DNA of 64,000 bases. Source: Nostoc edaphicum CCNP1411 (GTDB lineage Bacteria > Cyanobacteriota > Cyanobacteriia > Cyanobacteriales > Nostocaceae). The position numbers and the translations under genes were made by a program. The notes beneath the pieces were generated by a model. That model searched no databases. It had not been told where the DNA came from and was given only the letters and a program-made list of their open reading frames with translations. The stretch is taken from assembly GCF_014023275.1 (NCBI RefSeq), contig NZ_CP054698.1:3162001-3226000 (forward strand), read 5' to 3'. This document shows positions 28,872 to 61,003 of this stretch, piece by piece; within the stretch, counting starts at the first letter, position 1, and each line of letters starts with the position of its first letter.

Positions 28872-29533
28872 TAGACTCCTCCTAAAATTAAATTTGCGTA
28901 AAGCATAGAATAGAAAATTTTATCTTGACAAATAATAATATTTAATGTTTATAGTTTCTATGGATTTTAGAGAATGCCTAAAAAGTTTTTTTGTATACAT
29001 CTAACCCTTGAGATCCCCCTAAATCCCCCTTAAAAAGGGGGACTTTAAGAGCTTTTTGCCCCCCTTTTTAAGGGGGGTTGGGGGGATCAAAAGGCCTGTG
29101 GCGCAACTCTAAAAGACTTGAGTGTACACCATAGCTTTTTTAAGGAGGGTTAGGGGGGATCAAGAAATTATTTGATACTTCTCAGACATCCTCTTACAGC
29201 TTATTTAAAAGAGGGAAACAGATTCAAACCCAGAAACCTAGATGAAATGTAAATTTATTAATTTCGAGTTGTATCATACCATTTCCAAAAATCTTTGCAA
29301 CATAATGAATCGGCTGTAGGAGCGTACAGATGTACACTACTAGCAACAAAATTAAATAGGATTACTGTAGATTTCTAACGCTTTTTATACAAGTGCGATC
29401 TCAAAACTGTTGAACTACATAGATTTTGCAGGACTACAAGGCGATCGCAGTTTGCATCAATAAATAAAGTTGCAGATCAGAAATTGCTGTGCGATCGCAT
29501 AATTAGACATACCTTGTTTCGGAGCAAACAGAA
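28872..29533. other. Repeat-rich region before the GH57 gene
   Basis: About 660 bp. It contains a palindromic cluster of C and G runs (TCCCCCTAAATCCCCCTT, CCCCCTTTTTAAGGGGGGT; 29008-29110) and a decayed copy of the 22-bp mobile end GACTTGAGTGTACACCATAG (29115-29137). A second TTTTTTAAGGAGGGTTAGGGG block follows. HIP1 sites near 29440. No gene supported. Confidence 0.6.
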
Positions 29534-31194: not shown

Positions 31195-31305
31195 CTGTTC
31201 AGGGGCTACGGTGAATTACCCCCCTTAATCCCCCCTTGCAAAGGGGGGAAAAAAGAAATCTAGTTCCCTCCCCTTTGCAAGGGGAGGGTTAGGGTGGGGT
31301 ATTTT
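31195..31305. repeat. Copy of the dispersed C/G-run repeat with a decayed mobile end
   Basis: GGGGCTACGGTG (31202-31213) looks like the remnant of the GCTACGGTGTATACACAAGT end. It is followed by TACCCCCCTTAATCCCCCCTT, AAATCTAGTTCCCTCCCCTTTG and GGGAGGGTTAGGGTGGGG. The same module occurs near 40525-40650, 51105-51190 and 60795-60880. Confidence 0.65.
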
Positions 31306-38820: not shown

Positions 38821-38912
38821 TAGGACTTACGCAAAACTACACGTGGTAGAGGCAATCCATAATTTCCCATACCGTAAAATTAGGATTTGGGCTATTGTTT
38901 GCGTAAGTCCTA
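38821..38912. repeat. 92-bp MITE with 15-bp perfect terminal inverted repeats
   Basis: The ends TAGGACTTACGCAAA (38821-38835) and TTTGCGTAAGTCCTA (38898-38912) are perfectly complementary. TA flanks either side fit a short target duplication. A half copy TAGGACTTACGCA is found at 56778-56790. This is a non-autonomous mobile element. Confidence 0.75.
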
Positions 38913-38960
38913 TAGCGTTTCTCGACAAGCGTGAAGTACAATTTTGACCTCACTTCCATT

Positions 38961-38991
38961 CCTCTCTCCTAAAAGGAGCTACGGTGTACAC
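38961..38991. repeat. Outer inverted repeat, left arm
   Basis: CCTCTCTCCTAAAAGGAGCT plus ACGGTGTACAC pairs with the right arm at 40805-40835 (30 of 31 bases). It contains a mobile end (GCTACGGTGTACAC). Together they bracket the whole IS4 region. Confidence 0.8.
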
Positions 38992-39034
38992 ACAACACAA
39001 GTCAAATTACCCCCCTTAATCCCCCCTTTTTAAG

Positions 39035-40525
39035 GCTACCGTGTATACACAAGTCCATCCAGAGCGAGTTTCCAGCCGATAAAGATGGATTCAAATTGTC
39101 TTAAACCATGAACAAGGGTAGGCATTCCAGGAGGCCTACCAGAGGTATAACCAGACCATCCACCAAGTCGAGCAATGATCCAAGTAGCCCAGGGCAAACA
39201 ACCCCGTGGATAAGGATTTTGTAATTTTTTGGTATCGCCTTCAACAGAAGATTGAAGTCCTAATAAGCATTGCTGCTGCTTTTGACAAAAGGTAAGCTCG
39301 GCAGAAAGTTGAGTATTATCGCGTCCCTCAACCATTTGTAAGGTTCGCACGGCTACGGACAAAGCAAGGATTGTTAGGCGTTGAATTGCAATACTAGACT
39401 CTAACTGAGTCGCTTCGATATTCAATCCAGCTTTTTTGAGAGTGGCAAAAAGTTGTTCAATCTTCCATCGCCATCCGTACCACTTAATGACTCGCAGTGC
39501 CTGTTCCAAGCAGACAACAACGTGAGTTGTCAGCAACCGCCAATGAATCGGTTCTTGTCCTGCGGGTGGTTGGACTTCCAGAGCTTCAACAGCAAAAAAG
39601 GGTAACACTAGGAGGATAGCCAAAAACGCCTAATTTATCGGGGCGTTGAATCTCAACTTGTCCACAACGAAACAATAAGCATTGCTTCTCTTGGCATTCG
39701 CTTTCGACGTGAGTCTGCGGGAACGTTAATTATATAAGTACCTTCACAAGGCTGCTGACTTAAGTAGTCGAATAGTGATTCAGACCGCCCTAACAATCGA
39801 CGATCTTGGCAAGCTCTTATCAGTAAATGATTGTTTTTATTGGGTACAGTTGCAAATTCCTCAAATAAATCCGATTCGCGGTCGCCAATATGAGTTACCA
39901 TTTTTGCTCCACCCACTTCAAAGCATCGCTTACTACTTTCTGCCGATGCTAACCATTTGTAAGATTCTTTCTCCTCAATTGGTAAATTTTGATAGTCACG
40001 AGTTATGTTTATCTGCATGGTTTATAGCTCGGCTCCACAGTTTTACTGTGCTTAACCCCAGTGGAAATCCACTCTCACCATCTAATACCAATGTTGGATG
40101 GATATAAAACCCGACATCTGTGTTATTGCCTACTACTCCTAATCCTGGCGGTGACAGCCTACCTGCATGAGACTGCAAGTTAATCTCGCTAGTATCGCTA
40201 ATCGCTAATACGTGTCGTTTTGCCAGATGAAACTCGCAATCATCCGAAAGGCTACGTACTAGTTCTGATAGTGTTACGTTTTCATTCTCCAAAAACCGAT
40301 AATAACCCATCTGTTCTGCCCAATTTCGACTTATTTGCCGGATATTTATCGATTGGTGCTTACGAATCGCCTCGTATAATGCTGCCCCCTTTTTATCAGC
40401 CTTGGGTCTCCAAATGCCGTTCCTGGTGTCGTCGAAGCGTGAATTAAGATTGGATTATCCATAGTTTTTGCTTCTCAAAAATCCTCTGCACCTACTTTAC
40501 ATCCGACTTGTGTATACACGGTAGC
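39035..40525 (-). mobile_element. IS4-family insertion sequence with 24-bp inverted ends, decayed
   Basis: The left end AAGGCTACCGTGTATACACA plus AGTC (39032-39055) and the right end GACTTGTGTATACACGGTAGCCTT (40505-40528) are perfect inverted repeats of 24 bp. Between them lies one broken IS4-type transposase gene. The outer flanking 9-mers are CTTTTTAAG (39026-39034) and CTTGGCAAG (40526-40534): related but not identical, so no clean target duplication is left. The element is about 1491 bp if the ends begin at GCTACC. Confidence 0.85.
39036..40462 (-). pseudogene. IS4-family transposase, several frameshifts
   Basis: Read across frames the protein begins MDNPILIHASTTPGTAFGDP (ATG 40462) and continues ALYEAIRKHQSINIRQISRN, then MGYYRFLENENVTLSELVRS. 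The IS4/Tn5 landmarks are the first Asp in AISDTSE, the second in THIGDRESDLFEE, and the YREK signature Y-(2)-R-(3)-E-(6)-K in WYGWRWKIEQLFATLKKAG. Frame breaks lie near 40408 (a short G run), 40005, 39680 and 39615. The stop codon (39036) overlaps the left inverted repeat. No active transposase is made. IS4-family elements such as IS50 leave 9-bp duplications, which fits the related MITEs here. Confidence 0.87.
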
Positions 40526-40650
40526 CTTGGCAAGGGGGGATTAAGGGGGGTAATTAGACTTGTGTATACACCGTAGCCTTGGCAAGGGGGGAAACAAGAA
40601 AAATCTAGTTCCCTCCCCTTGCAAAGGGGAGGGTTAGGGTGGGGTGAAAC
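40505..40650. repeat. Tandem mobile ends and C/G-run module to the right of the IS
   Basis: GACTTGTGTATACACGGTAG (40505) is followed by CTTGGCAAGGGGGGATTAAG and a second end GACTTGTGTATACACCGTAG (40557-40576), again followed by CTTGGCAAGG. Then come AATCTAGTTCCCTCCCCTTG and GGGAGGGTTAGGGTGGGG. The same module is at 31215-31305, 51105-51190 and 60795-60880. The tandem arrangement suggests recombination between copies. Confidence 0.75.
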
Positions 40651-40804
40651 ATTGGTTAGGGACTTTCAAGAAATAAATTATCCATTTTGTGGGGTGGGCA
40701 ACATGAGCGCCCTAAATCTGGGACGGGTGGGGACACCCGTCCCACAAGAAAATTTGGGATGTTTTTTTATTTGGAAGTCCCTTAATTAGCGATTTCATAT
40801 TTGT

Positions 40805-40835
40805 GTGTACACCATAGCTCCTTTTAGGAGAGAGG
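40805..40835. repeat. Outer inverted repeat, right arm
   Basis: GTGTACACCATAGCTCCTTT plus TAGGAGAGAGG is complementary to 38961-38991 with one mismatch. It marks the right limit of the nested mobile region. Confidence 0.8.
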
Positions 40836-40927
40836 CTTTGATATTATTGTGTTATTTATGTTTTTGGTAGTCTACAGGTCTTTCTAGAGCTTGTTCCGTT
40901 TCAGCAACACTCTGTAGAGTTTCAATT

Positions 40928-41872
40928 ATGTCTGACGCAATTATTCAATCTGAATTATTGGATCACAAAGCTAATCACGAGCAAAAACTCTGCCAGATTC
41001 TCACTGTACAAGAATTAAGTGTTCTAAACGATCGCTCCAACAGCAAAGGGCTAGTTCAACTGGCTTTTCATCTCACTATTATGGGTTGCAGTGGCTACTT
41101 GTGGGCAACAAACTTTGGTAATTGGTCGGTGGCTATACCAGCACTGTTAATCTACGGCTTCAGTCTGGCTTCGATGTTTGCATCAATGCACGAATGCGTT
41201 CACAGAACGGCTTTCGCTAACAATCGTTTGAATGATTCCGTGGCTTGGTTTTCCGGCTTGCTCTCATTTTACAACAGCACGTTTTTTCGTCGTTATCATA
41301 AATGGCATCACCGCTACACTCGCGTTCCTAACAAAGATCCAGAATTGACTGATCTCAAACCCAGCAACCTGGGCAAATACTTGTTGATAATTAGCGGTTT
41401 ACCGTGGTGGTGGGGCAAGATAAGTGGGCATTTTCAGGTTGCAACTGGTCAATTTGACGATTTTCCATTTGTGTCAGAAGCAGCACGAGCCGAAGTTATT
41501 CGTTCTACACGTTGGCAATTAAGTATTTATGCTGGTGCTATCGTTCTCTCGATAGCATTTAATCAGCCTTGGTTTTTCCTGTATTGGCTGCTGCCGCTTC
41601 TTGTGGGCCAGCCGATTCTCCGTTTCATTCTGCTTGCAGAACATACAGGTTGCACTCTTGACGCCAATCTGCTTACAAACACGCGCACAACGCTAACTCT
41701 CTGGCCTGTGCGATTTTTCATGTGGAATATGCCATTTCACGCAGAGCATCATTTGTATGCATCAATTCCGTTCCACGCTTTACCAAAAGCACATCAGCTA
41801 TTGAGCAAACACTTTACCCACATTGAACCTGGCTATCTGAAAGTCAACTGGGATATCATAACTAATTCGTAA
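40928..41872 (+). CDS. Fatty acid desaturase family protein
   Basis: This 314-residue integral membrane di-iron enzyme has the three histidine clusters of the family: HECVH in ASMHECVHRTAF, HKWHH in RRYHKWHHRYT, and HAEHH in MPFHAEHHLYASIP. Hydrophobic segments flank them (LVQLAFHLTIMGCSGYLWAT, IPALLIYGFSLASMF, SIYAGAIVLSIAF, WFFLYWLLPLLV). It could act on acyl lipids or another substrate such as a carotenoid; the H-box spacing alone does not decide. No partner ferredoxin gene is adjacent. It sits just after the IS region, with repeats before and after. Confidence 0.88.
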   Translation: MSDAIIQSELLDHKANHEQKLCQILTVQELSVLNDRSNSKGLVQLAFHLTIMGCSGYLWATNFGNWSVAIPALLIYGFSLASMFASMHECVHRTAFANNRLNDSVAWFSGLLSFYNSTFFRRYHKWHHRYTRVPNKDPELTDLKPSNLGKYLLIISGLPWWWGKISGHFQVATGQFDDFPFVSEAARAEVIRSTRWQLSIYAGAIVLSIAFNQPWFFLYWLLPLLVGQPILRFILLAEHTGCTLDANLLTNTRTTLTLWPVRFFMWNMPFHAEHHLYASIPFHALPKAHQLLSKHFTHIEPGYLKVNWDIITNS

Positions 41873-49375: not shown

Positions 49376-50039
49376 ATTAGAAGTTAAGAGTGAGGAGTTA
49401 AAAGTTAGAACTGAAAAATTATTAGAAGTTTTACTCCTAACTCCTAACTCGCAATTTGATACTCAGTTAGTCAATATAGCGGTTCTCAATTGTATGAAAT
49501 ACAGACCTAACCCCCAGCCCCTTCCCTGCAAGGGAAGGGGAGTAAGACTTAAAGTCTCTCTCCTAAAAGGAGCTACGGTGTATACACAAGTCCTAAAAAC
49601 CTAGCTTGATAAGACTTTCCTCGTTCCTAGTCTCTGACTGGGAATGCATTCATTGAGTCTCTGACTCAATGCCAGATTGGAGGCAGAGCCTTAACGAGGA
49701 GCATTCCCATGCTCTGCATGGGAACGAGATAAACGAGAGAACAATGAAAAATCAAGTTTTTTTTTGACTTGTGTATACACCGTAGCCTAAAAGGAGAAAG
49801 GTCAAAGTGTATTGCTTCCATTCGAGAACCGCTATAATTTCATGCCTAGACTCAAGACGAGGGCAAACTGTCCATTAACAACACTTGCGTATGACATTGA
49901 GCAAAGTGTCCGTCATCAAGAATAACTTTGTGCCTATGCACCTGGGCGCGTGCAAGGTAAAAATGCGGCTAACAATCTGGGTGAGTCACTCTTATTTTTT
50001 ATTGCACTTTGAAAAAATCAAACTCATCTGGTGAATGTA
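49376..50039. other. Repeat-rich gap between hydrolase and kinase
   Basis: It starts with heptamer-like GAGGAGTTAAAAGTTAG and CTCCTAACTCC, then CCTTCCCTGCAAGGGAAGGG (palindrome near 49521), then the MITE at 49572-49786. The last 180 bp before the kinase show nothing recognisable. Confidence 0.5.
49563..49795. mobile_element. 215-bp MITE with IS4-type ends and 9-bp target duplication
   Basis: The ends GCTACGGTGTATACACAAGT (49572-49591) and ACTTGTGTATACACCGTAGC (49767-49786) are perfect inverted repeats of at least 20 bp, one base different from the IS ends at 39035. The element is flanked by direct repeats CTAAAAGGA (49563-49571 and 49787-49795). The interior contains a hairpin CATTCCCATGCTCTGCATGG-type stretch. 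No coding content. It was therefore mobilised by the same transposase family. Confidence 0.92.
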
Positions 50040-51104: not shown

Positions 51105-51215
51105 TACCCCACCCTAACCCTCCCCTTGCAAAGGGGAGGGAACTAGATTTTCTTGTTTCCCCCCTTAGCAAGGGGGGATTAAGGGGGGTAATTCGACTTG
51201 TGTGTACACCGTAGG
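51105..51215. repeat. Copy of the C/G-run module with a right mobile end
   Basis: CCCACCCTAACCCTCCCCTT then AAAGGGGAGGG, ATTTTCTTGTTTCCCCCCTT, GCAAGGGGGGATTAAGG, and then GACTTGTGTGTACACCGTAG (51195-51214). The left end is missing. The same order of parts is found inside the MITE at 60751-60906. Confidence 0.75.
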
Positions 51216-60680: not shown

Positions 60681-61003
60681 AGGTTGTTTTAAAAGTATTT
60701 TGGTGTGATTTTAGACACGTTTAGATCCCCCCTAACCCCCCTTAAAAAGGCTACGGTGTATACACAAGTATCAAATAGCTGATTAACCAAGGGTTTACCC
60801 CACCCTAACCCTCCCCTTGTAAAGGGGAGGGAACTAGATTTTCTTGTTTCCCCCCTTTCCAAGGGGGGATTAAGGGGGGTAATTTGACTTGTGTATACAC
60901 CGTAGCCTTAAAAAGGGGGGAACCGGAATCAAAGTCCCCCTTTTTAAGGGGGATTTAGGGGTATCTAAAACCTTTTGTTACCGACAAGAGGACTTTTAAA
61001 ACA
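60681..61003. mobile_element. Nested mobile element that splits the gene (outer)
   Basis: This 323-bp insertion lies between direct repeats TCCTCTTAG. Its ends contain TGTTTTAAAAGT (left, 60684-60695) and ACTTTTAAAACA (right, 60992-61003) in inverted orientation, with CCCCCCTAACCCCCC and AAGTCCCCCTTTTTAAGGGGG in the interior. It has itself received the element at 60751-60906. Confidence 0.85.
60742..60915. mobile_element. 156-bp MITE with IS4-type ends and 9-bp target duplication (inner)
   Basis: The ends GCTACGGTGTATACACAAGT (60751-60770) and ACTTGTGTATACACCGTAGC (60887-60906) are perfect inverted repeats. The element is flanked by CTTAAAAAG at 60742-60750 and 60907-60915. Interior: CCCTCCCCTTGTAAAGGGGAGG and CAAGGGGGGATTAAGGGGGG. 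Same ends as the IS at 39035 and the MITE at 49572. Confidence 0.93.

Follow-up and report, generated by a model that had tools for sequence, protein, structure and literature searches.

Which transposase owns the short inverted ends that recur across a 64,000-nt stretch of Nostoc edaphicum CCNP1411 DNA (contig NZ_CP054698.1; hereafter the window), and is the insertion sequence (IS) that carries such ends there a dead relic? A sequence-only reading of the window had described a decayed IS4-family element as the one source of a family of miniature inverted-repeat transposable elements (MITEs). Following this up in the whole genome (G000, 8.3 Mb in 6 contigs) and in related genomes, we found that the repeats are real and linked to a Tn5-type member of the IS4 family, whereas the boundaries given for the element, the length of its target duplications, its decay and its standing as the single source all had to be revised. 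New here is a conserved two-frame transposase within a family defined as frameshift-free. Taken as a whole, the element, which we call IS-A, is very probably an IS50-type cut-and-paste IS with a two-frame transposase under a slip-site switch, its tips being shared with passenger MITEs.

A Tn5-type transposase in two reading frames

The open reading frames (ORFs) of IS-A in the window match the IS4-family transposase model NF033590 in three pieces and include the YREK motif WYGWRWKIEQLFATLKKAG, as the sequence-only reading had it. For a 310-residue piece of the IS-A copy L091, the best relative of solved structure was Tn5 transposase (E 1.7e-26), and the read-through of both frames of a related element from genome G073 (474 residues) aligned with Tn5 transposase at residues 13-465 on 18-465 (E 1.4e-39). 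In the read-through alignment, Asp, Asp and Glu line up with the catalytic DDE residues of Tn5 transposase. The YREK signature, Y-(2)-R-(3)-E-(6)-K, is present, with Y174, R177, E181 and K188 invariant in an eight-sequence alignment, and the body of the protein scored 22.3 bits against Pfam DDE_Tnp_1, just under the cut-off of 23.

We searched 217 genomes of the same family, Nostocaceae to judge by named relatives, with the 310-residue piece (E ≤1e-60, at most the ten best candidates scored per genome) and found relatives in 21 of them, with 27 new loci in genomes other than G000, three of which lack the left end. The 24 loci keeping that end have the N-terminus (MENPIRIHAQ...FGDPRLIKRG) in one frame, here frame 0, and the rest (AALYEAMGKHQ...YYRFLENENV) in the −1 frame, with an A4-7G5 run at the junction. 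A scan of 354 relatives from named genomes, from which the best 80 loci were kept (some of them copies within one genome, and probably overlapping with the G-numbered genomes), held 28 cyanobacterial loci: 23 split in the −1 direction, four with a broken body, one without upstream DNA and none single-frame. All 23 testable cyanobacterial loci thus have the Tn5-type DNA-binding domain divided at AAAAGGGGG, with one part in each frame. A single-ORF transposase and the absence of a frameshift are given as a hallmark of the IS4 family in PMC2266710; these 23 loci, split and with both frames conserved, depart from it.

When the elements are compared, both frames look selected: frame 0 up to the run, the −1 frame from there on. 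The comparison covered 20 elements from 18 genomes, with 19 distinct upstream sequences and the near-copies L191 and L194-L197 omitted. Upstream of the run, pairwise synonymous to nonsynonymous differences stood at 951:1210 in frame 0, with 0 stops, against 97:2020 (18 stops) in the −1 frame and 211:1970 (34 stops) in the +1 frame. Downstream, the −1 frame gave 2528:2808 (6 stops), compared with 627:4989 (100 stops) and 477:5022 (64 stops) in the other two. Frame 0 starts with ATG or GTG in all 20 elements, and the Lys-Arg-Gly codons at the junction are AAA AGG GGG in 26 of 26 distinct cyanobacterial sequences, in contrast to an arginine four codons upstream, for which six codons are used.

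Frame 0 also contributes to domain recognition: against the DNA-binding domain PF14706 (cut-off 24 bits), the read-through scored 31.1, the body alone 13.4 and a 480-codon body-frame ORF 13.7. Read-through and body both scored about 390 bits with NF033590 (transpos_IS4_3), a 405-position model that begins at residue 53 of the read-through and leaves out the part before the junction, as might be expected of a family model built from proteins annotated without frame 0. Two of the 120 best homologues listed, P0025 and P0028, are natural fusions: each carries the expected N-terminus without a change of frame and agrees with the predicted product. A search of 386 genomes did not turn up their DNA.

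In Roseiflexus IS630 (T5C5 slippage), IS1447 and other frameshifted IS, too, a short slip site links the two frames of the transposase. Those are other IS families, whereas the junction here lies inside a Tn5-type DNA-binding domain. GeneTack contains −1 and +1 frame-shifted gene clusters named DDE_Tnp_1, and the main text of PMC3711429 leaves IS4 unmentioned; the elements described here may lie in those clusters, counted earlier without recognition as IS4. In the literature searched, which extended neither to ISfinder nor to supplements and subscription papers, we met no account of IS4 or IS50 elements that use a frameshift.

Tips, target duplications and palindromic sites

The 20-bp end motif has 11 matches in the window at three or fewer mismatches and none in 100 shuffles. 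They fall at the places listed in the sequence-only reading, except for the end at 31202, a shorter remnant that is recognised by eye and lies below 20-mer matching. The genome-wide count proposed there returned 256 occurrences in G000 at two or fewer mismatches (127 forward, 129 reverse; 0 for the reversed-pattern control). At one or no mismatch, the 19-bp end occurs in 192 of the 217 genomes and in 53 of 53 within the genus; the reversed pattern had two matches over the 217 genomes, both in G162.

The duplications fix where the element begins. MITE statistics were drawn from 60 loci, 49 of them two-ended, obtained in searches that scored the best 40 of 223 and the best 40 of 186 candidates. 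Duplications of at least 8 bp, with one terminal base counted in, flank 29 of the 49 two-ended copies, compared with 129 of 2352 unpaired flanks. They are therefore above chance, and duplications no more frequent than chance had been named beforehand as an outcome that would refute the proposed family. All 29 run over the formerly assigned terminal base on each side, and they do so even when it is an A or C at the left end or a T, G or A at the right end. Because the duplications cover the terminal base on both sides, the element begins with CTAC and ends with GTAG; the terminal G/C formerly assigned to the end is part of the duplicated target, and GCTAC is not the start.

Among perfect duplications of at least 9 bp (n = 60), 54 measured 10 or 11 bp, five 9 bp and one 12 bp, in keeping with the duplication of about one helix turn typical of the IS4 family. 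The two complete non-coding elements of the window do carry the perfect duplications ascribed to them, at a length of 11 bp instead of 9. Perfect 11-bp duplications flank three of the seven IS-A copies in G000; the other four are without, the window copy included, whose flanks CTTTTTAAGG and CCTTGGCAAG give no matching duplication.

With its boundary corrected, the tip agrees at seven of seven fixed positions with the IS50-subgroup consensus CW------Y---CA-A--W- (Table 1 of PMC2266710, which lists the subgroup with 1350-1550 bp and 8-9-bp direct repeats), compared with none of seven for the earlier boundary. Both IS-A and a sister IS fit at 7/7, as do 118 of 200000 random 20-mers. IS-B, another IS4-type element of G000 with other ends, fits at 6/7, and the fit therefore marks the IS50 subgroup, not IS-A itself. 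IS-A resembles IS50/Tn5 further in homology over nearly the whole read-through and in size (1487-1490 bp), and differs from it in the two-frame transposase and in duplications that are mostly 10-11 bp, where that table gives 8-9. The transposase stop codon forms the last three bases of the element, in the window IS-A and likewise in L171, and the protein sequence specified by the right tip is ...LVYTR for IS-A and ...LVCTP for the sister element.

We rebuilt the empty site for 60 insertions (31 G000 MITE sites, 12 from 20 MITE loci elsewhere and 17 from 34 IS loci, a few sites being near-duplicates) and counted complementary pairs, of 12 possible, about the centre of the duplication. The three sets averaged 6.42, 5.25 and 7.06 pairs, respectively, compared with 3.08 at random window positions and 2.76 at displaced centres. 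At least eight pairs were present at 17 of the 60 sites (10, 1 and 6 by set, the MITE sites from other genomes thus supplying just one of their 12); random positions reach that number in 0.46% of cases and displaced centres in 0.3%. The symmetry is maximal 5-9 bases off centre and, by eye, mainly pairs a left-hand C with a right-hand G. Such C/G-armed palindromes also occur within the type-1 MITE, and the IS-A copies L091, L093 (window) and L097 appear to sit in MITE-like sequence at such palindromes. IS insertion at palindromes is documented in PMC1525189: ISRm22, of the IS4 family, and ISPsy8 likewise insert at palindromes, with repetitive extragenic palindromic (REP) targets, and for ISPsy8 the insertion point is the axis about which a probable hairpin is symmetrical. 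In contrast to these, the C/G-armed palindromes found here vary in sequence, and the type-1 MITE itself carries them. IS-B (L099, G000:C6:2169686-2170876), a Tn5-related element with ends CTATCCATTATAAACATC and a single-frame transposase, likewise sits within CCCC..TTNNNAA..GGGG palindromes.

Small elements, candidate helpers and the window copy

The small elements (Table 1) are short, lack a transposase gene, have terminal inverted repeats and target duplications and occur in many copies, as MITEs do. Their tips equal those of an IS50/Tn5-type IS, and duplication length and target kind are alike, which upholds the proposed IS4 link. Ends tied to no IS4 transposase elsewhere had been named as a second refuting outcome, and in other genomes the tips do flank a transposase. 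A single IS4-type source is a different matter: the window IS has the tip CTACCGTGTATACACAAGT, but 92 G000 ends read exactly GCTACGGTGTACACACAAGT, 19 bp of which make up the tip of a sister IS present in other genomes. The two complete window MITEs share just their 19-21-bp tips with IS-A and with one sister IS, and nothing convincing further inward; the similarity ending there, descent by internal deletion of IS-A is not supported for these two elements.

Table 1 Features of the IS-A locus and of related elements in the window
Feature	Position	Strand	Basis or remark
IS-A, Tn5/IS50-type insertion sequence, 1489 bp	39036..40524	-	corrected boundaries; 1 of 7 near-identical copies examined
19-bp terminal repeat CTACCGTGTATACACAAGT, outer 3 bp forming the transposase stop codon on the minus strand	39036..39054	+	sequence, ORF end
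19-bp terminal repeat, transposase start side	40506..40524	-	end-motif matching
Frame-0 segment MDNPILIHASTTPGTAFGDPRLIKRG, opening the Tn5-type DNA-binding domain, ATG at 40462	40385..40462	-	
Frame-transition site AAAAAGGGGG	40385..40394	-	AAAAGGGGGC in 32/32 cyanobacterial elements listed
Transposase body, −1 frame (AALYEAIRKHQ...), broken here by single-base differences, possibly assembly errors	39036..40385	-	
Composite: type-1 MITE (tips 38979, 40817) with IS-A and a further tip (40557-40576) at its inner palindrome	38979..40817	.	nesting putative
Type-2 MITE-like element of 213 bp without transposase, tips CTACGGTGTATACACAAGT	49573..49785	.	
Target duplication CCTAAAAGGAG, 11 bp, left copy	49562..49572 (right copy 49786-49796)	.	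perfect match
Type-1 MITE-like element, 155 bp, inner C/G-armed palindromes	60751..60905	.	
Target duplication CCTTAAAAAGG, 11 bp, left copy	60740..60750 (right copy 60906-60916)	.	perfect match
Decayed single tip	29116..29135	-	3 mismatches to the 20-mer
Truncated type-1 MITE, one tip	51196..51214	-	end-motif matching

Two transposase lineages carry such tips. The IS-A lineage (G118, G015, G017) has TATAC-type tips; the sister lineage, with a transposase 63-70% identical over most of the query, has ends that are mostly CTACGGTGTACACACAAGT. Perfect 9-11-bp duplications flank 12 of the 27 loci from other genomes, some with a span exceeding IS length. The nine matches of G000 itself (best 10 of 39 candidates scored) are all pieces of IS-A. 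The tips are thus tied to a Tn5-type transposase in many genomes, but two helpers are plausible, of which the window IS is one without being a proven ancestor. A rule that MITE tips follow the resident transposase, considered on TATAC counts in the 217 genomes, was dropped after the counts in G144 and G118: exact TATAC versus TACAC tips number 38 versus 7 in G144, 74 versus 117 in G000 and 7 versus 33 in G118. G144 is TATAC-rich yet without a transposase match at E ≤1e-60, and G118 has an IS-A copy yet is TATAC-poor.

Small Nostocales elements with terminal repeats have been described before, among them Nezha and the MITEs of Anabaena sp. 90; in PMC3542288 the latter are reported without evident similarity to the repeats of that genome's IS. 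The outer flanks of the composite element, CCTAAAAGGAG and CTCCTTTTAGG, are inverse copies of one another. Inverse instead of direct flank copies were seen at window 38968-40828 and at L124, L126 and L162, and look as if exchanged through recombination between inverted copies.

As to decay, the seven IS-A copies examined differ by one substitution in all, yet five sites show single-base indels. G118 holds a 99% identical relative with a body frame open over 471 codons; the IS-A copies differ from this relative by 17-18 substitutions and 1-4 indels. The IS4-type elements of G000 are of at least three kinds, IS-A, IS-B and a further one, and one copy of IS-B, the ends of which are unlike those of IS-A, is open over the whole model; eight other IS-B copies compared with it show 0-3 substitutions and 2-7 indels each. 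The two complete 23S rRNA genes of the assembly (L198 and L199; G000:C6:1354072-1356963 and 6563222-6566116) are nine single-base gaps and four mismatches apart, and the window itself holds many long ORFs (for example 1017, 769 and 589 codons). Residual indel errors in repeats would be the simplest reading of these single-base differences. Because single-base indels also separate other repeats of the assembly, IS-B and 23S, the word decayed is unsafe for the window transposase, and its decay is not established. A third 23S place, C6:5041684-5042514, matches the first part of the 23S model only, in two pieces. At L096 (G000:C6:5869000-5876000), where an IS-A copy lies beside an IS-B copy, the left flank is like the L095 site and the right like L094, as would be expected after recombination between copies, and this may be a rearrangement breakpoint.

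A putative slip-site switch, its rivals and its reach

Comparison among these elements brings out two conserved frames, invariant slip codons, common tips, duplications and target symmetry, features that a single course of events would accommodate. Translation would start at the ATG or GTG of frame 0 and run through 26 codons, the first half of a Tn5-type DNA-binding domain. A shift to the −1 frame at the A4-7G5 run (AAA AGG GGG) would then be needed to make the protein of about 474 residues; a chain that failed to shift would end 12-17 codons later. Such a programmed frame switch, with the ribosome or RNA polymerase as the putative slipper, would control dosage by holding the end-binding transposase at a low level. 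The enzyme would bind the 19-bp tips CTACSGTGTAYACACAAGT and insert them at the centre of C-armed/G-armed palindromes, mostly with a 10-11-bp target duplication, and the small elements, having two tips and no gene, would be moved in trans by the IS-A lineage or the sister lineage.

The frame break might instead be no programmed switch: it might be an ancient disabling mutation whose carriers move with help from single-frame relatives, or the working enzyme might be wholly body-frame, with an internal start or an upstream TTG (as in the 480-codon ORF, which is from G073). We consider this improbable. Of the 120 best annotated homologues, 118 are without the frame-0 part, though gene callers would omit it anyway. 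In L175 the body frame can be read from a TTG that lies upstream of the run, and ATG or GTG occupies the position of the Tn5 inhibitor start in 7 of 20 elements (4 ATG, 3 GTG), a count at which we rejected a conserved inhibitor-type internal start. Against this, frame 0 upstream of the run is free of stops and its changes are mostly synonymous relative to the other frames, whereas the −1 frame has 18 stops there; the slip codons are invariant; and the DNA-binding domain falls to 13.4-13.7 bits once frame 0 is removed. G073 has five copies (68-69% to the query) and G118 four (67%), and the three examined in G073 have 11-bp duplications, so that split elements seem to have moved recently. Within the two-frame switch, and compatible with it, slippage may be transcriptional and not ribosomal, RNA polymerase adding a base at the X5Y5-type A5G5 run, a refinement that we regard as a serious possibility without favouring it. 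The run fits the XmYn pattern, and Roseiflexus IS630 is described as using T5C5 (PMC6211511, PMC5009743). By the rule set out in PMC3711429, mixed direction is a sign of transcriptional realignment and a constant −1 is tied to ribosomal shifting. The mixed direction in distant relatives (the body of L283 and L290 is in +1, that of most others in −1) therefore favours the former, whereas the constant −1 of 23/23 testable cyanobacterial loci favours the latter, and G5 would probably let the codon GGG re-pair one base back.

The small elements might also belong to another transposase that chances to share the tip and not be passengers of the IS-A lineage. Their likeness to the IS stops after 19-21 bp, most end-bearing genomes have no match at E 1e-60, and G144 is rich in TATAC tips (38 versus 7 TACAC) without one. 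We nevertheless think this unlikely: many MITE tips are identical over 19 bp to sister IS tips, MITEs and IS are alike in duplication length and palindromic target, and the other two IS4-type elements of G000 have different ends. A dead IS with MITEs as its internal-deletion products, the reading with which we began, has little left to recommend it beyond the lack of a full ORF in the window copy. One substitution in seven copies, single-base gaps between rRNA copies too, a 99% identical relative open over 471 body-frame codons and two MITEs without internal similarity to the IS all tell against it.

Several observations weigh against the two-frame switch with passenger MITEs that we prefer. 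All seven G000 IS-A copies carry one further single-base difference, a shared indel, from the open G118 relative. The codon-difference counts, being pairwise, are non-independent, and some loci are near-copies. The disrupted cyanobacterial locus L247, outside the 26 junctions counted, has A6G4 with GGA as the third junction codon. A conserved stimulatory RNA stem-loop was not found (consensus energy −0.39, with 40 of 100 column shuffles as low), and no Rfam family reached the gathering score at window 38900-41000. The transposase, at E ≤1e-60, occurs in 21 of 217 genomes and the ends in 192, which leaves present mobilisation by this transposase unsupported in most genomes. Nor is the split universal, 25 non-cyanobacterial loci and the IS-B of G000 being single-frame.

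Beyond the cyanobacteria, the 52 remaining loci of the best 80 comprise 25 single-frame, eight split −1 and one split +1, with 16 lacking the motif and two lacking upstream DNA. Overall, 57 of the 80 were classed (31 split −1, 1 split +1, 25 same frame), and the 23 unclassed are four with a broken body, three with short upstream DNA and 16 motif-less. L282 and L290, rhizobial and with no recognisable motif, are split by a looser reading, one in each direction. A single origin of the split found no support: a 65-row tree, in which 12 rows are unlabelled and one long row, L229, is badly placed, needs at least seven label changes, three of them forced by well-supported branches.

Tn5 is the model cut-and-paste transposase, and its family is partly defined by the absence of a frameshift. 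With a DNA-binding domain split by a conserved slip site, dosage control of a Tn5-like enzyme could be put to a direct test. The annotation of such genes should change, their N-terminus having been missed, and a MITE family widespread in one cyanobacterial family gains a defined transposase to test against. More tentatively, and with somewhat less than even confidence, we suggest that a widespread Tn5-like branch makes its DNA-binding domain only on a slip at A4-7G5; that unslipped or internally started products, without end binding, could act like the Tn5 inhibitor; that annotation, NCBIfam included, has lost the first ~50 residues; and that passenger MITEs carry the palindromes preferred as targets, so that these elements would nest in their own kind.

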